Source of the DNA: Candidatus Cloacimonadota bacterium
GTDB lineage: Bacteria > Hydrothermota > E44-bin80
NCBI GenBank assembly: GCA_004376305.1
Contig: SOKD01000280.1
Location: forward strand, 1-15,757
Length of the DNA stretch: 15,757 nt
Direction of reading: 5' to 3'
The notes under the pieces are model-generated. The model was not told the origin of the DNA. It searched no databases and worked only from the letters and a program-made list of their open reading frames with translations. Positions 2,365 through 15,390 of this stretch are shown piece after piece (position 1 is the stretch's first letter; every line of letters begins with the position of its first letter). Both the position numbers and the translations under genes were made by a program.

Positions 2365-5300
2365 TCAGTCAATCGAGAGTTTCCAGACATCCTCAAGTCG
2401 TTCCGTGGTCAGTGGATTTTTCGTATATCCCTGTATGTACTGCTGCATTGCAGTATAGTGTTGAGAGTGATAAAGGAATATCCATGGTGCATCGTCCACA
2501 AGAATTTCCTCTACCTGCTGGTACAGTAACGTTCTTTTATAATTATCGGTGAGCGTTGCCGCCTCATCGAGTAGTGCATCGACTGTTTCGTTTTTGTAGA
2601 ATGCTGTATTTCCGGGTTCGCCCCAGTTCTTAGAGTGAAAGAGGGGATAGAGAAAACTATCCGGATCAGCGTTGTCATTTGACCAGCCGAGAGCAAAAAG
2701 CAGGGATTTCCCTTTATGCGCGCTGCTGAGCAATTCTTCCCAGGAGAGGAGATTCAATTTTACGCGTATACCAACGCGCTCGAGACTTTTTCTAATTATC
2801 TCCCCCCCGATGGTTGCGATCTTTGAATCTCTGATGTCAAACTGGTACTCACCGGGCAATCCGTTAGGGAAGCCAGCCTCCACGAGGAGTGCTTTTGCTT
2901 TCTCCGGATTATGTTCATATCCAGTAAGTGTTTTATTATAGGAAGGAAAATTGGGAGGGAAAATTCCTCTGGCAGGGGTTCCGCGCCCTTTTGTAACTTT
3001 CTGAATGTATTCATTTCGGTCTAACGCAAAGTTCACTGCCTGCCTGACCAGTTTATTCTGAAAGGGCGTCTTGAGCCTGACATTGATACCGATATAGTAA
3101 ATATCGTAGATAAGGAAAGGTTCAATCCTGAATAGAGCGCTTTCCTCAGTTCCGGTAAAAGTTGTAATATCCACTGAACCAGGAATGTTAATGATGTCAA
3201 ATTCTCTATTCAGAAAACGTTCTGTTGTCTGTGTATCATCATGGCAGACAACAAAGTGAATTTCATCAAAAAAAGGTCTTTTACCAAAGTAATCATCAAA
3301 TGATTCCAGTACAATTTCTTTCCCTTTTTCCCAACTTTTTAGCATGTAGGGACCAGCACCCACCAGTCCCGTATCGGTTTGTTTCGCAATTCCACTGCAT
3401 GAAACAAATAGATTTTTCAGAAACGGAATATAGGGGTGACTGAGTTCTATGCTCAGATGGTGATTGTCCATTATCTTAATACCCTCAATATCCTTTGTTC
3501 TTCTTCTTGCAAATTCATTTGCTCCTCTTATCATGTCGAACATGTATTTGTGTGGTCCAGAAAGGATATGTTTGAGTGTTGATTTCACATCGTATGCGGT
3601 GAGCAAATCCCCGTCATGAAACTTCACATCATCTCGCAAAGCGAAATTCCATATGAGACCATCTTTTGATAATTTCCATCGTTTTGCAATTGCTGGAATC
3701 ACATTTGCATCAGGTCCCTGTTCCACGAGTCCCTTAAACACATTGACGGCTACTCTGTGTGAAGAAGAATCAGTTGTTCTTGAAGGATCAGTGTCCATAA
3801 TATCACCGGTTAGTCTCAGCCTCAGTATTGTTCTTGATGTTGTTTGGTCAGTAGGCACAAGCGGGAGGAGTTTCTTTTCAAGCTCTCCCAATTCGTACTT
3901 GAGTTTCGAGACAACCGAACCCATTTTTTCTGTTTCCCTAACCAGCGCGATACTCTGGTGGATGTTATCTTCAATCTTTGAAGAAAGGAAATTTTCCAAT
4001 GATGAAAGTGTCTCCTCCAGCACTGTTTGCCTGTCAAGTGTTCTCATCATTTCGTCAACGAGTTCATTGAGTTTACGTGTGGATATGTTCATTGCTTGAA
4101 AGCCTGTAGTTATTGGCTTGAAATCGTTTTTGCTCTCTCTGAGTTTTCCTGAGGTATCATACATAATCTGGTGCACATTTTTGAGGGATAGTTTTGCCTT
4201 GTTTACAGAATCCTCAATAGTTTTTAGGGCACCAGAGGATTGCTTGGAGAGGTCTTTTATTTGAGTCACAATAACATCGAGATTCTTCTTGAACTCAAAA
4301 GCTCTGGCGGATTCAATTGATGCATACAGGGAAAGAAGATTGCTCCTCTTTGAGAAAAGCTTGAGTTTCTTTAGTATCTCACCAACCCATTGCATTTCTT
4401 TTTCCAGAGAAGAAAAGTACGAATCCGCTCGCTCGACAAGCGCTGTCATCCTATCAATGATGGTAAGAATATTCTCTGACAGGGTATTTGTTTCATTAAA
4501 AAGGTCAGCAACCTCCTGTAATATATTCATCAGGGAATCAGTTTCCTGCGCTATCTCCTGTTTGATTTGTTTATTATCTTCAATAATTGAAAGGATCTGT
4601 ACCATTTTCTCTTTCTGGGATTCGAAATGTTTCGTTGCCTCAAGGGATGATTCCCGGATTTGGGATGTTAAGGAAGAAACCTTTACCATGTAATCTTTCA
4701 ACTTATTCGTATTAATGATAATTAACCCTGTATGAGCATTAAATGTGGACTTTTCTTTTTGCTCAAGAGACCCCAGGAGCAATAACATATTCTCGACAAA
4801 CCTGTTGACAAGGAGAGAAAGTGAATTCTGGCTTTGTTCAAGTGTGGTTAGGTTTCCTGTTTCTATGAGCGATTGTGTTGCAAATGCAGCAATAATCTCT
4901 TCTTCTTCCCCCAGTTTATTCTTTATTCCAAGCTGTTTGTCAACAGCAGTGTGGATTATATTGGAAACATCCATGAATTCTCCAAGCAAGTTTTCGCTTG
5001 ATTTGAGCTTGAGCTTCATATCCTCCGCATTTTGCTTAACCTGCTCCATGTTGTGTGTGAGTTCAGCGATGAAATTAACTGCTTCATTTGTCTTTGTCCG
5101 AAACCTTTGTATCATTTCGGGAACCTCGACGGTAATATTCAATGATTCTTTTGTTAACTGAGTTAACTCCCGTGCTATTACTTCAAACCCCTTTCCTTTT
5201 TCCCCGGCATGGAATGCTTTAATTCCAGCATTTCTTGATACGCCACGGGTAAGGTGAGAAATATTGTGTATTCGATCGATTGCAACCTCAATATCTTTGA

Positions 5301-5724
5301 TTCGCTCACCGAGTTCTCGCAAACTTTCGATTGATTTCGAGATGATTTCAATTATCTTGGTGAATCCTGTTGTTGCGGTTTCAAGGTTGGCATAGCGAAT
5401 CTCCCAATCGCGTTTCTGTTCTTCAAGCGCCGAAAAAGCAACTTCTGTTGCTTCTGCAATTATCTGGATGGATGCAAAAAGATTGTGTGTTTCCCTTTTC
5501 ATAGCTGCAAGTTTTTCCGATATTATGTAGCCACCGCTTGTTACTCTAAGGAGGGCATTCTCTCTCAATTCAAACTCAGAGCGCAACTCATCGTTGTTTT
5601 TTACAATTGCGTCTGCATGCTGTCGAAGCAGCTTGAGGGTTTCCTCCAAATCCTCTTCTGAGAGATATGTATATGTTGCGGTTTTGTCCATTTTCTGCTT
5701 TCGAGTGAAAAGATTCATTTTCAT
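2365..5724 (-). CDS. cytoplasmic double MCP-like signalling protein fused to a family 5 solute-binding domain
   Basis: One 1119-residue frame has no signal peptide and no membrane segment. Residues about 60-620 are almost entirely helical coiled coil and hold two chemoreceptor-type hairpin tips. Tip 1 (about 153-197) keeps the second half of the consensus: HAGEKGKGFEVIARELTQL. Tip 2 (about 452-500) keeps the first half: RSNLLSLYASIESARA. Residues about 630-1119 form a complete SBP_bac_5 domain, as in DppA, OppA and NikA: VNVFKGLVEQ, the VKFHDGDLLTAYDV signature (about 700-713), GAGPYML, and late motifs GWSNDNADPDSF and DDAPWIFLYH. Such domains normally bind peptides or metal chelates outside the membrane; here the domain should be cytoplasmic. 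T567-S575 (TVLEETLSS) is close to the receptor methylation consensus and lies about 95 residues past tip 2, as in known receptors. The start is uncertain: M1, M3 or M12 are possible, because the best promoter leaves almost no leader before M1. Its location opposite the cheR-cheD-cheB operon fits a chemosensory role. Confidence 0.88.
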   Translation of the reverse strand: MKMNLFTRKQKMDKTATYTYLSEEDLEETLKLLRQHADAIVKNNDELRSEFELRENALLRVTSGGYIISEKLAAMKRETHNLFASIQIIAEATEVAFSALEEQKRDWEIRYANLETATTGFTKIIEIISKSIESLRELGERIKDIEVAIDRIHNISHLTRGVSRNAGIKAFHAGEKGKGFEVIARELTQLTKESLNITVEVPEMIQRFRTKTNEAVNFIAELTHNMEQVKQNAEDMKLKLKSSENLLGEFMDVSNIIHTAVDKQLGIKNKLGEEEEIIAAFATQSLIETGNLTTLEQSQNSLSLLVNRFVENMLLLLGSLEQKEKSTFNAHTGLIIINTNKLKDYMVKVSSLTSQIRESSLEATKHFESQKEKMVQILSIIEDNKQIKQEIAQETDSLMNILQEVADLFNETNTLSENILTIIDRMTALVERADSYFSSLEKEMQWVGEILKKLKLFSKRSNLLSLYASIESARAFEFKKNLDVIVTQIKDLSKQSSGALKTIEDSVNKAKLSLKNVHQIMYDTSGKLRESKNDFKPITTGFQAMNISTRKLNELVDEMMRTLDRQTVLEETLSSLENFLSSKIEDNIHQSIALVRETEKMGSVVSKLKYELGELEKKLLPLVPTDQTTSRTILRLRLTGDIMDTDPSRTTDSSSHRVAVNVFKGLVEQGPDANVIPAIAKRWKLSKDGLIWNFALRDDVKFHDGDLLTAYDVKSTLKHILSGPHKYMFDMIRGANEFARRRTKDIEGIKIMDNHHLSIELSHPYIPFLKNLFVSCSGIAKQTDTGLVGAGPYMLKSWEKGKEIVLESFDDYFGKRPFFDEIHFVVCHDDTQTTERFLNREFDIINIPGSVDITTFTGTEESALFRIEPFLIYDIYYIGINVRLKTPFQNKLVRQAVNFALDRNEYIQKVTKGRGTPARGIFPPNFPSYNKTLTGYEHNPEKAKALLVEAGFPNGLPGEYQFDIRDSKIATIGGEIIRKSLERVGIRVKLNLLSWEELLSSAHKGKSLLFALGWSNDNADPDSFLYPLFHSKNWGEPGNTAFYKNETVDALLDEAATLTDNYKRTLLYQQVEEILVDDAPWIFLYHSQHYTAMQQYIQGYTKNPLTTERLEDVWKLSID

Positions 5725-5995: not shown

Positions 5996-6445
5996 ATGAG
6001 AATTTCGTTTGTAAAGAAACTCATTGAGCTTGTTCAAGAAATGGACGTGGAAGAGGTGGAGATTAGACGCTGGTTCACTTCAATTCGCATCAAGATGAAT
6101 TCTGCAGGAGCGCCATTGGAACGGAAAGGGACGGGAATTCATCAGAAAACTGTTCAGCAACCTGTTGAAGCAGAAAAGGCAGAAGAAAAAAGCACTGAGA
6201 TAAATGTTACTGCTATTAAAACTCCCATGGTAGGAACATTTTACCGAGCGCCTGCATCTGACGCGCCCCCGTATGTTGAGATCGGTGACCATGTTTCTGT
6301 GGGGAAAATTGTATGTATTGTTGAGGCAATGAAGATAATGAATGAAATAGAATCAGATGTGAGCGGTACCCTTACGGATATTCTTGTGAAGAACGAAGAT
6401 CCGGTGGAATATAACCAGCAGCTCTTTTTAGTTAACCCAGAATGA
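5996..6445 (+). CDS. accB: acetyl-CoA carboxylase biotin carboxyl carrier protein
   Basis: AccB (BCCP) carries biotin between the biotin carboxylase and carboxyltransferase halves of acetyl-CoA carboxylase, the committed step of fatty acid synthesis, in the cytoplasm. At 149 residues it has the usual length. An N-terminal helix (about 1-24) precedes a charged Ala/Glu/Lys-rich linker. The biotinyl domain (about 70-149) holds the biotinylation motif EAMKIMNE with K113 as the modified lysine. The segment ASDAPPYV (87-94) corresponds to the BCCP 'thumb' and separates AccB from other biotinyl proteins. AAAGGG at 5983-5988, seven bases before the ATG, supports the start. It is the first gene of the plus-strand cluster; its partner accC is displaced downstream by pilT. 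Confidence 0.97.
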   Translation: MRISFVKKLIELVQEMDVEEVEIRRWFTSIRIKMNSAGAPLERKGTGIHQKTVQQPVEAEKAEEKSTEINVTAIKTPMVGTFYRAPASDAPPYVEIGDHVSVGKIVCIVEAMKIMNEIESDVSGTLTDILVKNEDPVEYNQQLFLVNPE

Positions 6446-6455
6446 GGAAGCAATT

Positions 6456-7562
6456 ATGAATCTTAAAAGTCTTTTGGAGAGGATGGTCAGGGAGGAAGCA
6501 AGTGATCTGCATTTGAAGGCTGGTTCACCTCCTGTGTTGAGAATTGATGGAAGATTGACAGCTCTTAAAGAAGAACCATTGAGTCCCGAAGAGCTTCGGA
6601 AAACTGCTCAGCAAATTATGACGAAGGATCAACAAGATGAGTTTATCCGGACGAAAGAATTGGATTTTGCCATCGGTGTTTCAGGGCTTGCACGTTTCAG
6701 GGTGAATGTGTATATGCAGAGGGGCAGTGTTGCGATTGCAATGAGAACAATTCCGCCTTCTATTAAGAGAATTGACGAACTGAATGTTCCTCAGGTACTC
6801 AAGGATCTCTCACTCAGACGCAGGGGATTGGTACTGTGCACCGGTACAACAGGAAGCGGAAAATCAACGACACTTGCTGCAATGATTGAACATATCAATG
6901 AGAATATTAGCCAGAATGTCATCACTATTGAAGATCCGATCGAATTTTTATTTCGAGACAAAAAGAGTATCATCAGTCAACGGGAGCATGGTATGGATAC
7001 TCATAGTTTTTCGAGTGCACTCAAGCATGTTATGCGTCAGGATCCGGATGTTATTCTGATCGGTGAGATCAGGGACAAGGATACCATGGATGTTGCCTTG
7101 AAAGCTGCAGATACAGGCCATCTTGTACTGAGTACTCTGCACACATTGAATGCAAGTGAAACGATAAACAGAATTATATCTTTTTATCCTCCGCATCAAC
7201 AACAACATGTGAGGGTACTCCTTTCAGCGACACTTGTTGCGGTTATTTCCTTACGGCTTCTTGCTCGGGCTGATGGCAAGGGGAGGGTTCCCGCTGTTGA
7301 AATAATGATTGTGACACCAACAATCAAAGAATATATTCTTGATCCTATAAAAACGCTTCTCATCCCTACAGCAATTGAAGAAGGTTCGCAGTACTTCATG
7401 CAGAGTTTTGACCAGTCAATAATGAAGCTTTACAGCGATGGCATCATTAGTTATGATGATGCTATGTCAAATGTTACCAATCCAGATGAGTTCAACCTCA
7501 AACTTCGCGGTATTAAGGGAACCTCAGAAGCGGGTTGGACAGATTTTGAAAGTAGAGGTTAG
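6456..7562 (+). CDS. pilT: type IV pilus retraction ATPase, PilT/PilU family
   Basis: This 368-residue cytoplasmic hexameric ATPase depolymerises type IV pili and so drives twitching. Visible motifs are Walker A GTTGSGKST (130-138), the Asp box ITIEDPIEF with E159, Walker B DPDVILIGEIRD with E204, and the His box TGHLVLSTLHT (220-230). All catalytic residues appear intact. The PilT 'AIRNLI' retraction motif is replaced by T-I-K-E-Y-I (289-294). The C-terminus (MQSFDQSIMKLYSDGIISYD, then DAMSN) also resembles the accessory ATPase PilU, so the PilT/PilU choice is open. The gene starts ten bases after accB, with AGGAAG at 6445-6450, and ends five bases before accC. No other pilus gene is in the window. 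Confidence 0.93.
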   Translation: MNLKSLLERMVREEASDLHLKAGSPPVLRIDGRLTALKEEPLSPEELRKTAQQIMTKDQQDEFIRTKELDFAIGVSGLARFRVNVYMQRGSVAIAMRTIPPSIKRIDELNVPQVLKDLSLRRRGLVLCTGTTGSGKSTTLAAMIEHINENISQNVITIEDPIEFLFRDKKSIISQREHGMDTHSFSSALKHVMRQDPDVILIGEIRDKDTMDVALKAADTGHLVLSTLHTLNASETINRIISFYPPHQQQHVRVLLSATLVAVISLRLLARADGKGRVPAVEIMIVTPTIKEYILDPIKTLLIPTAIEEGSQYFMQSFDQSIMKLYSDGIISYDDAMSNVTNPDEFNLKLRGIKGTSEAGWTDFESRG

Positions 7563-7567
7563 CTTGG

Positions 7568-8905
7568 ATGTTCAAAAGAGTCCTTGTTGCAAACAGAGGA
7601 GAAATAGCTCTTAGAATAATCCGGGCCTGCCAAGAACTCGGGATTGAGACTGTTTCAGTCCATTCAGAGATTGATGAGGATTCCCTTCATGTCCGTTTCT
7701 CGGATCAATCCGTCTGTATAGGTCCCCCTCAAAGCCAAAGTAGCTACCTCAGCACAAAAGAGATAATCAGTGCATGCCTTGTTACGAACTGCGAGGCAAT
7801 ACATCCCGGCTACGGCTTTCTTGCCGAAAATGCTCAATTTGCCGAAATGTGCGAGTCAAATGGCATTACCTTTATTGGACCACCTTATGAAATAATAAGA
7901 AGAATGGGTGATAAGGTATATGCGAAATCGGAAATGGAGGAAACAGGAATTCCGGTTATTCCTGGAAGCAAAGAAGCGATTTCCAAGATAGGCTCCGGAT
8001 TGGAAATCGCCAAAGATATTGGGTTTCCCATTATAATAAAAGCAGCCTTTGGTGGGGGGGGGAAAGGCATGCGAATTGTCACCGAGGGAAAAACATTTAA
8101 GGATGCTTTCAAAATTGCAAAAACTGAAGCTGAGAGTTCCTTTGGGGATGGGAGCCTCTATATTGAGAAATACATACAAAATCCCCGTCACATCGAATTT
8201 CAGATTCTATCGGATAACTATGGGAATGCGATTCATCTTGGAGAAAGGGAATGTTCGATTCAGCGAAGACATCAGAAGTTACTGGAGGAAAGTCCATCAA
8301 CCGCCATTGATGAAGCTCGACGCGCCAAAATGGGCAGGCTTGCTGTCAGAGGTATGAAGAAAATAGGATACAGAAGCGTCGGAACCGTTGAGTTCATAGT
8401 AGACCAGCAGAATCATTTCTATTTTATGGAAATGAATACGAGAATTCAAGTGGAGCATCCGGTAACTGAATTTGTTACGGATGTGGACCTCGTTAAGGAG
8501 CAGATCAAGATGGCGGCGGGTGCGAAGCTTGCTTTTAAACAAGGGGACATCAAACTAAAAGGAGTGGCTATTGAAGCGCGAATAAACGCAGAGGATCCTG
8601 AAAAGAATTTCATGCCTTCGGTTGGCAAGATTGATGGCTTTCATATTCCCGGCGGACCAGGTGTGAGAGTAGATACCCATCTCTATTCAGGCTACACTGT
8701 TTCACAATACTATGATTCCCTTATTGCTAAATTAATTACCCACGGGAGCGATAGGAACGAGGCGATTACCCGACTACGGCGTGCGCTTAATGAATTCGTG
8801 ATTGAGGGGATAAAAACAACGATTCCATTTCATCTAAAGCTTCTTGAGAACAAAAACTTTATTGACGGGAATATTCATACTGGTCTCGTGGATGAGATGC
8901 TCTAA
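7568..8905 (+). CDS. accC: acetyl-CoA carboxylase biotin carboxylase subunit
   Basis: AccC carboxylates the biotin on AccB using ATP and bicarbonate. The 445 residues align almost position for position with the E. coli enzyme (449). The N-terminal domain opens with KRVLVANRGEIALR, and the ATP-grasp glycine loop is KAAFGGGGKGM (158-168). Catalytic and ligand residues are present: K116, K158, H208, K237, E288, N290, R292, E296 and R338. The EAINAEDP-type motif reads EARINAEDP (336-344). The absence of fused carrier or transferase domains marks it as the stand-alone subunit rather than pyruvate carboxylase or propionyl-CoA carboxylase alpha. A run of nine G residues (8054-8062) encodes the glycine loop. 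The start lies five bases after pilT. Confidence 0.97.
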   Translation: MFKRVLVANRGEIALRIIRACQELGIETVSVHSEIDEDSLHVRFSDQSVCIGPPQSQSSYLSTKEIISACLVTNCEAIHPGYGFLAENAQFAEMCESNGITFIGPPYEIIRRMGDKVYAKSEMEETGIPVIPGSKEAISKIGSGLEIAKDIGFPIIIKAAFGGGGKGMRIVTEGKTFKDAFKIAKTEAESSFGDGSLYIEKYIQNPRHIEFQILSDNYGNAIHLGERECSIQRRHQKLLEESPSTAIDEARRAKMGRLAVRGMKKIGYRSVGTVEFIVDQQNHFYFMEMNTRIQVEHPVTEFVTDVDLVKEQIKMAAGAKLAFKQGDIKLKGVAIEARINAEDPEKNFMPSVGKIDGFHIPGGPGVRVDTHLYSGYTVSQYYDSLIAKLITHGSDRNEAITRLRRALNEFVIEGIKTTIPFHLKLLENKNFIDGNIHTGLVDEML

Positions 8906-8910
8906 GAGCA

Positions 8911-9504
8911 ATGGCTTTAATCAGATATGCAACAAAAGAAATTGTGTGCAAGATTGTTTATTATGGTCCCGGAAGATCCGGCAAGACGACAAACATGCAG
9001 TATCTTTACAGCAGGGTATCAAAGGACAGAAAAGGAGAAATGATCTCGTTGGCAACAAGCCAGGACAGAACACTTTTCTTTGATTTTTTCCCTCTGGATT
9101 TAGGGCTCATTTACGGTTTTCAGACAAGTTTTCAATTGTACACGGTTCCGGGGCAGGTATACTACAATTCGACCAGGAAACTGGTGCTGCAAGGTGCAGA
9201 TGGTGTTGTGTTTGTAGCCGATTCTCAGAGGTGCCGAAATGAGGACAATATCATCAGTTTTAGGAATCTTGATGATAATCTTGCTGCAAATGGTTACGAC
9301 ATCAAAGAGATACCACTTATAATGCAATACAATAAGAGAGATATTGAAAATGTTATAGAAGTAGATACACTCAAAAAGGAACTCAATTACCTTCAGGTAC
9401 CTGATATTGCTGCATCTGCCCTCAAAGGAGATGGTGTTATTGACACATTCAGGATGGTTGGAAAGGAAGTGCTTTCAAGTATCAGGAGGAAATTCGAAAA
9501 GTAA
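8911..9504 (+). CDS. mglA: MglA-type Ras-like polarity GTPase
   Basis: This 197-residue small GTPase matches Myxococcus MglA in length and in numbering of key residues. It has the P-loop GPGRSGKTT (19-27), the switch I residues R53 (the intrinsic arginine finger of MglA) and T54 in QDRTLFFDFFPLDLG, the switch II motif TVPGQVYYN with Q82, and NKRD (141-144) for guanine recognition. In Myxococcus and Thermus, MglA-GTP marks the leading pole and controls type IV pili. The cognate activator MglB is not in the window. The gene begins five bases after accC and its stop codon overlaps the next start (TAATG at 9502-9506), so its product is probably made in step with the ATPase that follows. The nearby pilT supports a pilus role. 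Confidence 0.93.
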   Translation: MALIRYATKEIVCKIVYYGPGRSGKTTNMQYLYSRVSKDRKGEMISLATSQDRTLFFDFFPLDLGLIYGFQTSFQLYTVPGQVYYNSTRKLVLQGADGVVFVADSQRCRNEDNIISFRNLDDNLAANGYDIKEIPLIMQYNKRDIENVIEVDTLKKELNYLQVPDIAASALKGDGVIDTFRMVGKEVLSSIRRKFEK

Positions 9505-11468: not shown

Positions 11469-13040
11469 ATGGCAATAAAAGGGTCATTAAGAGAAGCAGG
11501 TCTCCCGGATGTTATTCAGCTTCTTTCAATGGGACAAAAAACCGGGATTCTTACGGTAACCGAGAAGGAACATTTTGGATCGATTTCATTCTTTAAAGGT
11601 AATATAGTCGATAGTTATCTTATTACTCGAAAAAACAGGATTGGAGAATTACTTGTTGCCTCCGGAGAGATGAGTGAAGAACAACTTGCGGAAGCGCTCG
11701 AGTTGCAGAAGAAAACGGGAGAAAAGATAGGAAAAATTCTCCTGAAAGAGAAATTTGTGAGAGAAGAATCCCTGGTTACATACCTGAAGCAACAAATTCA
11801 GGAAACAATAATGACAATGATGACATGGGAAAATGGGTACTTCAGTTTTGAACCTCGATTTACTGATATGGACGAAGAGCTTGTTGCCGTTAATCCAGCG
11901 AGTCTTCTGCTGGAAACGGCAAAGCAAGCTGATGAACTTTCTGAAGTATCACTTGATATCCTCAGGGAATCGTCCATTGTGAAACCAGTCGCTTCAGATG
12001 AGGAAATAGAGCAGCTCACCAAAAATGAGAAAAGAGTTTACTCTTTGATAGATGGGGAAAAAACATTAGAGATAATTATTGAGTTTTCTCCCTTTGATAC
12101 CTTTGATACGAAAGGAATTGTCTCTTCTTTTGTGAATAGAGGATACTGTCAAGTCATAGAAAGAATTTCACCTCAGGGAATATCTGAAAAGATTAACGAA
12201 CATCTTAATCTTGGCATTGCATTTTTAAAAACACAATTATATGATGAAGCGGAAAGGGAATTCAAGCACGTGGTTAAATTGAATCCAAAAAACCGGGATG
12301 CCAGGTTCTACCTGTCGGTTATCCTTACGAAGACAAAGAACTACAGGGAGGCTGAAGAGCTCCTCAGGAAGCTTCTGAAAGAGCATCCTGATAATTCTTT
12401 GTATCAGAACAATCTGGGATATATACTTGAAGTAAAGAACCGCTTGGATGAAGCAATGGAATGCTTCGAGAAGTCATCAGGACTGGAAATTTCCGGAATT
12501 CCCGTTTTAAACAAAGGCATTGTTCTTTTCAAGCGGGGAGATTTTGCTCCCGCAAAGGAGCACTTTGAGAGGGCTCTTGGGATTGATAAAAACCTCTTGC
12601 TGCCGCACTTCTATCTGGGAATGATAAACATAGTTGCGGGGAAACCTACAGATACCATTCAGGAATTCGAGTTCATCATTGAAAAAGACCCCACTATTCC
12701 CACTATCTATTTTAACCTTGGTATCATTTATGAAAATCTCATGAAATCAGAAAAGGCGGAAGAGAGCTACAAAAAAGCGCTTGAGCTTGCACCAAATTAC
12801 ATGGAAGCAAAGATTAAATTGGGAGGTTTGTACTATAAACAGGGATTGTATCCATCAGCGCAAAAAATATTTGAGATAATTTCCGGTGTTGGACTGGGCA
12901 ATGCAGATATGTTTCTTAAATTGGGGAATATTTATTTTAAGATTGGTCAAAAGGATCGGGCTCTTAAACAGTGGAAAAAAACCCTTGAATTTGATCCTGG
13001 AAACAAAATTGCGAGAAGAAACATCGAAATGGCAGGTTGA
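11469..13040 (+). CDS. DUF4388/PATAN protein with MshEN-like repeats and TPRs
   Basis: This is a 523-residue soluble protein. Residues about 4-135 form a DUF4388 (PATAN-type) domain: G-S-L-R-E-A-G-L-P-D-V-I-Q-L-L start, GILTV, FFKGNIVDSY, and a closing W-E-N-G-Y-F-S-F-E-P. Inside it sit two 24-residue motifs of the MshEN type, R57-Q80 and K86-Q109, separated by five residues. The first keeps the R-I-G-x-x-L-V-x-x-G pattern; the second is degenerate. Residues about 240-510 are some eight tetratricopeptide repeats, for example YDEAEREFKHVVKLNPKN and AEESYKKALELAPN. PATAN-domain proteins regulate type IV pili in cyanobacteria and MshEN binds cyclic di-GMP on pilus and secretion ATPases, so a link between signalling and pili is plausible. 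TPRs imply protein docking. The ribosome site is weak. The gene sits 27 bases after the ATPase gene. Confidence 0.88.
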   Translation: MAIKGSLREAGLPDVIQLLSMGQKTGILTVTEKEHFGSISFFKGNIVDSYLITRKNRIGELLVASGEMSEEQLAEALELQKKTGEKIGKILLKEKFVREESLVTYLKQQIQETIMTMMTWENGYFSFEPRFTDMDEELVAVNPASLLLETAKQADELSEVSLDILRESSIVKPVASDEEIEQLTKNEKRVYSLIDGEKTLEIIIEFSPFDTFDTKGIVSSFVNRGYCQVIERISPQGISEKINEHLNLGIAFLKTQLYDEAEREFKHVVKLNPKNRDARFYLSVILTKTKNYREAEELLRKLLKEHPDNSLYQNNLGYILEVKNRLDEAMECFEKSSGLEISGIPVLNKGIVLFKRGDFAPAKEHFERALGIDKNLLLPHFYLGMINIVAGKPTDTIQEFEFIIEKDPTIPTIYFNLGIIYENLMKSEKAEESYKKALELAPNYMEAKIKLGGLYYKQGLYPSAQKIFEIISGVGLGNADMFLKLGNIYFKIGQKDRALKQWKKTLEFDPGNKIARRNIEMAG

Positions 13041-13079: not shown

Positions 13080-13889
13080 ATGGAAATGGACAAGGATTTT
13101 GAAATTTTGAAAAAGACCATTACAAGAACAATCGACTTTTTTCCGGAACGCTATAAACAAAAGCCTCTAAAACGCAGGATTGCAGTAAGAATGAGATATA
13201 CAAAGAAGGATTCTTACCTTGAATATGCACATCTGCTTGAAAATAATAAGGAAGAGCAACGCCTTTTGCACAAAACGCTTACTATTAATGTTTCGAAATT
13301 TTTCAGGAACTATGAAACCTTTAAGAAAATAGAGAATGCAGTTCTTCCAAAAATATTTGATACGTATAAAAATAGCGGTGGCATTGTAAAAGTATGGTGC
13401 GCAGGGTGTGCGACCGGGGAAGAAACATATACGATTGCCATGCTTATTGATACATTCCTCAAAGAAAAGAAATTGTCAGTTCCCTTTACTGTTATTGGGA
13501 CAGATATTGACACTGATAGCCTGGAGAAGGCTTGCATTGGTTGCTACAGGAAAGAGTTGTTTAATGAAATGCCCGAACAGTATATTGATGAATATTTCGA
13601 AAGAAACGAGAGGCTTTGCGTGCGGCATAGCATTAAGGAGAGGGTGCATTTTAAAAGACTTGATTTAGAAGAAGATGATGAAGAACTCAATGACCTTGAT
13701 CTTATTCTTTTCCGGAATGTGCTCATCTATATGGAGAGGATGTTTCAGGAAAAAGTGCTTCTGCATATATACCGGAGGTTATGTGAGAATGGTTTTTTGG
13801 TTCTCGGAAAGGTGGAGATGCTCTTTGGAGAAGTAAAAAAAATGTTTACGGTTCTTGATTCAAGAGAAAGGATATACAGAAAGTGTTAG
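13080..13889 (+). CDS. cheR: chemoreceptor glutamate methyltransferase CheR
   Basis: CheR transfers a methyl group from S-adenosylmethionine to glutamates on chemoreceptor helices for adaptation. At 269 residues it has the usual length. The N-terminal helical domain carries LKRRIAVRMR (30-39) and TINVSKFFR (68-76), both family hallmarks. The SAM-binding motif is VWCAGCATGEETYTIAM (105-121), followed by the GTDID acidic strand (140-144) and FRNVLIYM (211-218). The final motif reads LGKVEM, where the family usually has LG-x-S-E. There are no extra TPR or receptor-tethering domains. The start at 13080 is preceded by AAGGGA (13063-13068); the Met two codons later is an alternative. The 3' end overlaps cheD by seven bases. 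Likely substrate receptors include the divergently encoded MCP-like fusion protein. Confidence 0.95.
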   Translation: MEMDKDFEILKKTITRTIDFFPERYKQKPLKRRIAVRMRYTKKDSYLEYAHLLENNKEEQRLLHKTLTINVSKFFRNYETFKKIENAVLPKIFDTYKNSGGIVKVWCAGCATGEETYTIAMLIDTFLKEKKLSVPFTVIGTDIDTDSLEKACIGCYRKELFNEMPEQYIDEYFERNERLCVRHSIKERVHFKRLDLEEDDEELNDLDLILFRNVLIYMERMFQEKVLLHIYRRLCENGFLVLGKVEMLFGEVKKMFTVLDSRERIYRKC

Positions 13890-14365
13890 ATTCTTACAGA
13901 AAAAAAGTTAAAATTGCAGATGTGGTTATTGGTGAGAGTCCTGTTATATTGACAACATATGGACTTGGATCGTGCGTGGCTGTTATGGTGTACGATCCTG
14001 TGGCAAAGGTGGGGGGGATGAATCATTTTCTCCTGCCCCATGCTTCTCCCGCAAAAAAGAATGATAATCAAGCGAAATTCTCAGATACAGGAATCAGTAT
14101 GCTTATTGAGAAAGTTGAAGAACTGGGTGCAAGGAAAGAGCGGCTTGTGGCAAAAATTGCAGGGGGCGCGAATATGTTTCCCTCACTTACGAAGAATGCG
14201 ATCGGTCAAAAAAATATTGATGCGGCGCTGAAAGTATTAAAAGAGCAAGGGATACGGGTTTTATCCTCGGATATTGGTGGAAATTGGGGAAGGTCGGTTG
14301 ATTTTGATCTTTCTAATGGAATGGTTACGGTCAGATCATACAGAGCAGGGGTGAAGGAAATTTGA
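13883..14365 (+). CDS. cheD: chemoreceptor glutamine deamidase CheD
   Basis: CheD hydrolyses specific receptor glutamines to glutamate, creating sites for CheR; in Bacillus and Thermotoga it also works with CheC. The 160-residue protein carries the catalytic pair C31 (in YGLGSCVAV) and H48 (in GGMNHFLLP), 17 residues apart as in the Thermotoga enzyme. The family motifs KIAGGANMF (91-99) and IGGNWGRSV (131-139) are also present. The start is a GTG inside the end of cheR, giving a seven-base overlap, with AAGGA ten bases upstream. The stop overlaps the cheB start. No cheC is present in the window. Confidence 0.95.
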   Translation: MLDSYRKKVKIADVVIGESPVILTTYGLGSCVAVMVYDPVAKVGGMNHFLLPHASPAKKNDNQAKFSDTGISMLIEKVEELGARKERLVAKIAGGANMFPSLTKNAIGQKNIDAALKVLKEQGIRVLSSDIGGNWGRSVDFDLSNGMVTVRSYRAGVKEI

Positions 14366-15390
14366 GCGGGCCAATTCGGGTACTGGTCGTTGAGGATTCG
14401 GTACTTATGATACATGTAATAACAGAAATGCTTAATAGCGACTCAAGATTGCAGGTAGTTGATTCAGCACGGAATGGAAAGGAAGGCATAGAGAAGGTTA
14501 TTTCATTTGATCCCGATGTTGTTACGCTTGATATGGAGATGCCCGTAATGGATGGCACTGAGTTCTTAAAAAACATTATGAATGTTCATCCTGTTCCTGT
14601 TGTCATGCTCAGTGCATATACGAAAGAGGGTGCCCGGGAAACGATTGAGGCATTGAAACTGGGTGCTGTTGATTTTGTGGCGAAGCCTTCCGGAAGCATC
14701 TCGCTCACTATACGGGATATGAAGAAGGAGTTAATCGAAAAAATTGTTCTTGCATCTGGAATAAAGCGCGAGAGATTGCAATCCGCGCCTCAATGTGAGT
14801 TGTATCCGCAAGCATATATTCCATCAAACCAAACAACCAGAGTTGTTACCATCTGCAGTTCCACTGGTGGTCCACGGGCACTCTGTGCCATTCTTTCGGC
14901 TCTCCCCAAAAACCTCAATGCCTGTATTCTTATTATTCAACATATGCCAGGGGAGTTTACATCGTTGCTTGCAGAGCGGCTTGATAGACTGTCTCCACTG
15001 GAGGTTACAGAAGCAAGAGGAGGTGAACCGATTCATAAGGGAAAGGTCTATGTCGCTCCAGGAGGAAAACACCTTGAGGTTACAGACGAGGGGAAAATTA
15101 CGCTTACCGATAAACCGAAGAAGCACAGTGTTCGACCATCCTGTGAGGTGACACTAAAATCACTGGCTTTCTTTGGAGAGAGGCTTCTTGCAATTATTCT
15201 CACCGGAATGGGTAGAGATGGTTCTGGGGGGCTCTGTTCTGTAAAAGAAAGGAATGGAAGGGTAATTGTTGAGGATAGATCGACATCTGTAATATTTGGA
15301 ATGCCAAAAGCAGCCATTAAAACCGGCTATGTTGACAAGATCGTTCCGCTTCATGATATTGCAAAGGAAGTTGTTGATTTTGCCAGGTAA
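14362..15390 (+). CDS. cheB: chemotaxis response regulator methylesterase CheB
   Basis: CheB removes receptor methyl groups and is activated by phosphorylation from CheA. It is 342 residues long. The receiver domain (about 4-125) has D12, the phospho-acceptor D57 (in VVTLDMEMPVMDG), S84 and K108. The linker runs from about 126 to 158. The esterase domain (about 160-340) has the catalytic triad S167 (in CSSTGG), H194 (in QHMP) and D286 (in GMGRDG). A standard two-domain enzyme is therefore intact. The likely start is TTG at 14362, which overlaps the cheD stop (TTGA) and needs translational coupling; no ATG or GTG fits closer. CheA, which should phosphorylate D57, is not in the window. Confidence 0.95.
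   Translation: MSGPIRVLVVEDSVLMIHVITEMLNSDSRLQVVDSARNGKEGIEKVISFDPDVVTLDMEMPVMDGTEFLKNIMNVHPVPVVMLSAYTKEGARETIEALKLGAVDFVAKPSGSISLTIRDMKKELIEKIVLASGIKRERLQSAPQCELYPQAYIPSNQTTRVVTICSSTGGPRALCAILSALPKNLNACILIIQHMPGEFTSLLAERLDRLSPLEVTEARGGEPIHKGKVYVAPGGKHLEVTDEGKITLTDKPKKHSVRPSCEVTLKSLAFFGERLLAIILTGMGRDGSGGLCSVKERNGRVIVEDRSTSVIFGMPKAAIKTGYVDKIVPLHDIAKEVVDFAR

Follow-up and report, generated by a model that had tools for sequence, protein, structure and literature searches.

Two diverged chemoreceptor hairpins and a peptide-type binding domain in one predicted cytoplasmic protein of candidate division WOR-3

DosM of Vibrio cholerae, a receptor of the cytoplasmic cluster I (F9) array, contains two signalling domains, placed at the two ends of what has been described as a rod (PMC7534058). 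Two subunits of methyl-accepting chemotaxis proteins (MCPs) are also joined per chain in natural single-chain receptors of Rhodospirillum centenum and other organisms, as well as in the engineered, membrane-bound Tsr~Tsr (PMC4692393); that paper proposes single-chain receptors as a means of altering two subunits separately, reports that the fused Tsr genes were built for separating subunit roles and met subunit swapping, and gives the roles of the natural proteins as unknown. Solute-binding protein (SBP) domains are said, in a general statement, to serve also as sensors of cytosolic signalling proteins (PMC9602780); SBP_bac is among the sensor domains of archaeal chemoreceptors, which include cytoplasmic receptors with a C-terminal sensor domain (PMC9680633), and the signalling proteins SgrR and DsvR carry SBP_bac_5 at their C-terminus (PMC13060122). 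In our study, we analyzed contig SOKD01000280.1 of a Candidatus Cloacimonadota bacterium (GCA_004376305.1), whose whole stretch of 15,757 nucleotides we call the window, and in it a gene that encodes two MCP-type hairpins and an SBP_bac_5 domain in one chain (the fusion). Our preferred reading, to which we give a probability of roughly 0.6, is that the fusion is a soluble single-chain chemoreceptor whose two hairpins form one four-helix pseudo-dimer rod and whose C-terminal domain, of DppA type, acts as the sensor of a peptide-like ligand in the cytoplasm.

Like the DosM and R. centenum types, the fusion has two signalling domains in one soluble chain; however, the accessible text on DosM mentions no SBP domain, and both types are compared here by description only. 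Tsr~Tsr differs in being engineered and membrane-bound. No double hairpin is mentioned in the part of the archaeal survey at our disposal, and the output of SgrR and DsvR is a helix-turn-helix DNA-binding domain and not a receptor; the SgrR model gave the fusion 42 bits against a cut-off of 476. No description of a double-hairpin MCP-SBP_bac_5 fusion was found in the accessible portions of the open-licence literature on SBP_bac_5/SBP_bac chemoreceptors, WOR-3 chemotaxis and single-chain receptors.

Special attention has to be given to the Clostridia, where soluble MCP-SBP_bac_5 proteins with a single canonical hairpin are common, so the bare idea of the fusion is not new in databases. A search with a Caloramator protein (L057) gave 7819 matches, and the 120 listed (P0031-P0150) were examined, the remainder possibly including single-domain proteins. 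These proteins, too, carry an MCP signalling domain ahead of SBP_bac_5 at the C-terminus, with a top hydropathy mean of 1.76, but they possess one hairpin, with a canonical tip in 119 of the 120 and a strict methylation motif in 110, whereas the fusion possesses two hairpins, neither of which is canonical. What looks new is the combination of two hairpins with SBP_bac_5, together with a conserved reciprocal loss of features at the tips.

Architecture and distribution of the fusion

The reading frame of the fusion starts with ATG and has no internal stops. Pfam detected MCPsignal in two stretches (E 6.4e-25; 88.4 bits against a curated cut-off of 34.6) and SBP_bac_5 at E 5.2e-82, covering positions 2-367 of the 368 in the profile. 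Compared on its own by sequence with solved MCP chains, hairpin 1 (residues 23-323) matched 3g6b at E 2.4e-9, and hairpin 2 (residues 324-626) matched 6s18 and 2ch7 at E 1.1e-6 and 3.9e-5. Membrane insertion and export were judged by hydropathy alone, with proteins taken from loci starting at the first ATG. By this measure, no hydrophobic N-terminal segment, signal peptide or membrane helix was found in the fusion, whose highest Kyte-Doolittle 19-residue mean, 1.43, lies in a coil stretch at residue 82; it likewise lacks the export signal or lipobox typical of transporter-linked SBPs, and a long coil precedes its SBP domain. Among the 57 fusion proteins collected, three have maxima above 1.7 (P0013, 1.86; P0016, 1.90; the contig-edge L023, 2.01), all of them inside the helical part. 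The evidence supports a receptor made in one piece, probably cytoplasmic, whose binding domain is of peptide type.

The window is the entire 15.8-kb contig of a 1.75-Mb metagenome-assembled genome that is 77.6% complete, and an assembly chimera at the junction between hairpin and SBP domain had to be considered. It is ruled out because the fusion is found in one open frame in 33 of 100 genomes of the phylum (candidate division WOR-3), which belong to 12 families; the count is a hand tally of match rows spanning both domains, and in G043 the gene is truncated where the contig stops. In addition, 26 further protein clusters (P0002-P0028, minus the 691-residue P0018) match the fusion over 87-99% of its length. 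A second related gene occurs in four of the fusion genomes (G010:C13, G074:C16, G076:C47 and G088:C83). Five more MCP-SBP relatives (P0154-P0158) lie outside the set of 57: four have the same R-N-K and Y-E tips, described below, and P0158 matched neither tip expression. To our knowledge, the lineage has no cultured member. These results uphold what a preliminary description, made from the letters of the window, had claimed about two hairpins and a complete SBP_bac_5 domain in one uninterrupted frame and, as far as hydropathy goes, about the lack of a signal peptide or membrane helix. In the search across genomes that it had called for, the two-hairpin form recurs in 33 of the 100 phylum genomes, and soluble single-hairpin forms are common in Clostridia.

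Other arrangements of the same domains were also identified. The proteins P0029 and P0030 (MCP-DctP-MCP; hydropathy maxima 1.65 and 1.74) combine two hairpins and a binding domain per chain and lack a strongly hydrophobic segment, but this domain is of DctP type and both tips, at residues ~124 and ~728, are canonical. The tandem proteins P0151-P0153 (L061:2358-6827), of 1438-1489 residues, follow the order hairpin motif, SBP, hairpin motif, SBP, with K in one tip and E in the other at the same position; the gene at L061 adjoins a type II/IV secretion ATPase with an MshEN domain.

Tips of the two hairpins and the rod they may form

Tip columns were taken from 55 aligned sequences, the partial L023 and P0018 having been dropped from the 57; at 90% identity the set amounts to 50 sequences. 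The canonical tip L(-1), N(0), E(4), R(7), G(9), G(12), G(14), F(15) is constant in all but one of the 120 clostridial relatives listed, for which the search expression itself demanded N and the first G. Neither hairpin of the fusion unites L, N, E, R and GRGF, and each retains a different part of this set. N and G..G.GF persist in hairpin 1, which has R, K/T and H at the positions of canonical L, E and R (in column order, R 55, N 55, K 43 or T 11, H 51, G 55, G 55, G 55, F 51). In hairpin 2, L, E and in most sequences R are retained, while Tyr replaces Asn and GRGF is lost (L 53, Y 55, E 55, R 49, G 28 or F 19, G 2, G 5, and L 51 for F); its tip expression matched 57 of 57 sequences. The hairpin tips thus show a conserved reciprocal loss of canonical features. 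Outside them the coil has drifted strongly, with only 19 of the first 640 reference positions conserved at 90%. Such drift might be expected if the protein were a conventional cytoplasmic homodimer that signals through just one of its hairpins and retains the other as a degenerate remnant. We consider this explanation unlikely, since a remnant tip should decay and all 19 conserved positions lie in the tip regions, 12 in tip 1 and 7 in tip 2.

According to our preferred reading, the chain would fold back near residues 321-324, bringing the two hairpins together as one signalling rod, and closure of the SBP domain on its ligand would shift hairpin 2 at its C-terminal arm, altering CheA activity by way of CheW. 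The two AlphaFold2 models (predicted template modelling scores of 0.69 and 0.61) both have a helix break at the middle linker according to DSSP; this linker varies between 19 and 35 residues and contains Pro in 15 of the 55 sequences. Foldseek matches of the helical model include 8c5v, 2ch7, 3g6b and 3g67, and the MCP rows among the 50 matches listed by VIA are only integrative models, at ranks 47 and 48. Judged without coordinates, the fold matches tentatively favour a compact bundle over tips at opposite ends of a rod. The latter would correspond to a DosM-like scaffold bridging two cytoplasmic CheA/CheW layers, for which DosM itself is the precedent (PMC7534058), and both the spacing of 283-306 residues between the tips and the continuity of the helix through tip 1 would suit it. 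Nevertheless, we find such a scaffold improbable: its linker would be the variable, Pro-containing segment at which both models break, the hairpin motifs of the three tandem relatives are separated by an SBP stretch, and both tips are altered, each in its own way, although a rod that bridges two layers would be expected to require complete CheA/CheW contacts at either end.

With regard to signalling partners, a CheW match adjoins the fusion in 24 of the 33 genomes (hand tally). We compared 20 stretches by open reading frame calls and BLAST clusters, with domains named by Pfam in the G010 locus and in G001 and by cluster elsewhere; 11 of them hold the fusion with an adjoining cheW. The order in eight of these 11 is receptor, CheW, CheY, CheA, CheC and a TPR protein. 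As for the other three, the contig stops after CheA in L053, only cheW follows in L044 (G012), and CheA and CheC follow in L046 (G023), whose short genes were lost by the frame caller. Roadblock proteins are encoded further along in several cheW-adjoining loci. In the window's family, G001 has its CheW-CheY-CheA-CheC set on a separate contig (L039), and in the window's genome, G000, a cheW that has the same neighbours sits at the edge of a contig (L144). Within the 100 phylum genomes, CheW is present in 37 (the 33 fusion genomes plus G005, G027, G081 and G099) and CheD in exactly the 33 with the fusion; CheR exceeds the cut-off in 38 and was matched in 32 of the 33 (none in G049).

It is important to consider the observations that weigh against a single CheA/CheW-linked rod. 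The co-occurrence counts ignore phylogeny, the tips are tied to CheA/CheW solely by the adjacency of the genes to cheW, and this adjacency is missing in nine of the 33 genomes (G000-G003, the window's own among them, the four genomes of family f16, and G049). DSSP places a break at tip 2 only; at tip 1 neither model has one, the fragment being interrupted at residue 200. The packing was assessed by means of DSSP and fold matches and not from coordinates, and what matches as a bundle is of generic helical fold (TTYH, pore-forming proteins). The tandem relatives share the N/K versus aromatic/E difference but lack both R(-1) and G..G.GF, which tip 1 of the fusion has, and Pfam did not detect MCPsignal in the two of them that were scanned.

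A bolder version of the preferred reading, which we hold only tentatively, is that the fusion is an obligate hetero-pseudo-dimer that splits the work of the subunits, with inter-dimer contacts in one hairpin and the Asn/Gly motif in the other; it would take one orientation in the array, be poor in methylation and report internal peptides to type IV pilus control. In Tsr, E385 and R388' form a lock across dimers and F396 stacks at the trimer (PMC8144572). Already in the preferred reading, hairpin 2, which keeps the E and R of this ionic lock, would face the trimer axis and hairpin 1 would face outward. The F396 equivalent tells against this arrangement: hairpin 1 retains it, whereas hairpin 2 mostly has Leu there, therefore the inner/outer split is not clean. 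The same subunit sequence serves both the trimer axis and the CheA/CheW side in classical receptors, and therefore the two roles are not separable by mutating a homodimer; a natural single-chain receptor with divided tips, spread over 12 families of one phylum, would give a ready-made assignment of residues to each role.

Binding domain, output and adaptation

The full-length profile match and the fold both place the binding domain in the DppA/OppA class of SBP_bac_5. Asp1017 aligns with D408 of DppA and is Asp in 55 of 56 sequences; D408 is the residue that we take to hold the amino terminus of the peptide, which is consistent with the mutant named in entry 8z1z. Trp1014 is kept in all 56, and the rest of this segment shows strong conservation too. 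The candidate carboxylate-holding residue, R965, is kept in only 33 of the 56, and it is set at DppA R355 by the 3m8u alignment (by eye), where the 1dpp alignment sets D966. This modest conservation, together with the fact that the SBP fold usually works outside the cytoplasm, would agree with a domain that has no ligand and acts as a docking platform or fixed cap; the conservation of Asp1017, Trp1014 and their segment makes us doubt it. This nutrient-binding fold probably works as an internal sensor. The one-piece sensor of internal peptides put forward in the preliminary description is, to that extent, retained as a soluble receptor with a peptide-type domain, but not as a new idea.

Concerning the output, FlhA exceeds the cut-off in 4 of the 100 phylum genomes, and its profile had no match in any of the 33 fusion genomes; PilT, at E 1e-80 or better, is present in 83 of the 100, including all 33. 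Output is therefore probably through type IV pili or MglA-dependent polarity or motility, on which phospho-CheY would act. FrzCD of Myxococcus xanthus is described as a cytoplasmic receptor, like the fusion; it is linked to MglA motility, has one signalling domain and is not known to carry an SBP domain, and the Frz system is an analogue for steering MglA-dependent polarity.

The fusion had also been proposed as the receptor that is adapted by the cheR-cheD-cheB genes of the window, a claim that fared less well. Strict methylation motifs average 0.09 per protein over the 57 fusion proteins and number zero in that of the window, which has two loose motifs; loose motifs occur at 275 and at 296 in 15 of the 57 each. 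By hand tally, 16 of the 33 genomes have CheD within ~5 kb of a CheW match on a contig other than that of the main fusion, with an MCP-like match between two CheW matches in five of these loci (G011, G023, G033, G043 and G048), and CheD lies within ~11 kb of the fusion only in G000 and G001. The window's own genome has an MCP (L036, 588 residues) between two CheW genes, with HAMP and MCPsignal domains, several strongly hydrophobic N-terminal stretches, a canonical tip, and methylation motifs of which one is strict and seven, overlapping, are loose. Since the fusion is poor in such motifs, it is more plausible that the adaptation enzymes act on the other receptor. Pointing the other way are the exact match between CheD and the fusion across the phylum and the location of the fusion beside accB-pilT-accC in all four genomes of the window's family, with a 744-residue gene between them in G001. 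These enzymes may still have a role on the fusion, since CheD tracks it, and in the preferred reading adaptation would proceed mainly via CheC/CheD and not by methylation of the fusion. The contig with L036 (G000:C13) is a second chemosensory locus, of the order cheW, membrane MCP, cheW, with an AAA ATPase gene ahead.

Table 1. Features of the fusion gene and of its neighbours, in window coordinates.
Feature	Position	Strand	Evidence or remark
Double-hairpin MCP-SBP_bac_5 receptor gene	2365..5724	-	1119 residues
SBP_bac_5 binding domain, DppA/OppA class	2368..3834	-	residues 631-1119
Codon of Asp1017 (aligned with DppA Asp408)	2674..2676	-	alignment; Asp in 55/56 sequences
Hairpin 2, MCP-type coil joined directly to binding domain	3859..4752	-	residues 325-622; PDB sequence matches 6s18, 2ch7; AlphaFold2 helices
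Tip of hairpin 2	4246..4338	-	residues 463-493; L, E and R retained, Tyr for Asn, GRGF lost; 55 aligned sequences
Hairpin 1, MCP-type coil	4759..5658	-	residues 23-322; PDB sequence match 3g6b; AlphaFold2 helix
Tip of hairpin 1	5176..5238	-	residues 163-183; N and G..G.GF retained, R, K and H for L, E and R; 55 aligned sequences
Biotin/lipoyl carrier (accB-like), first gene of divergent run	5996..6445	+	PF00364, E 7e-21
pilT, type IV pilus retraction ATPase family	6456..7562	+	TIGR01420 over cut-off; PF00437
Biotin carboxylase (accC-like)	7568..8905	+	PF00289, PF02786, PF02785 over cut-offs
Small Ras/Arf-like GTPase, MglA-like	8911..9504	+	Arf and Ras matches just under curated cut-offs
DnaA-like ATPase gene, 645 residues	9504-11441		DnaA-type ATPase matches in three stretches; between MglA-like and DUF4388-TPR genes
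DUF4388-TPR protein	11469..13040	+	PF14332, E 7e-29; TPR families
cheR	13080..13889	+	PF01739, E 9e-49
cheD	13883..14365	+	PF03975, E 2e-32
cheB	14362..15390	+	PF01339 and PF00072

Neighbouring genes and minor observations

The small GTPase of the window (Table 1) is MglA-like. The pilT gene is flanked by the biotin carrier and biotin carboxylase genes (5996-8905), an arrangement kept in the four genomes of the family. A scan of genome contigs with the single fusion protein found no relative, and the best 80 of 594 loci from an alignment-based scan were mostly matches to the SBP part alone; reading frames were listed for three of those 80 (L057, L061 and L089). The last of these, L089:2-895, is the SBP end of a protein at a contig edge in a Mcinerneyibacteriota genome, 37% identical in the SBP part, and may be a member outside the phylum. 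Among SBP proteins of 690-715 residues that also matched, the one scanned (L140) is an SBP_bac_5-TonB_C protein and not a receptor. This frame, L140:760-2865, has a charged linker between the two domains and an N-terminus that is lipoprotein-like by eye, and frames of 650-735 residues with SBP-only matches are present in many genomes of the phylum.

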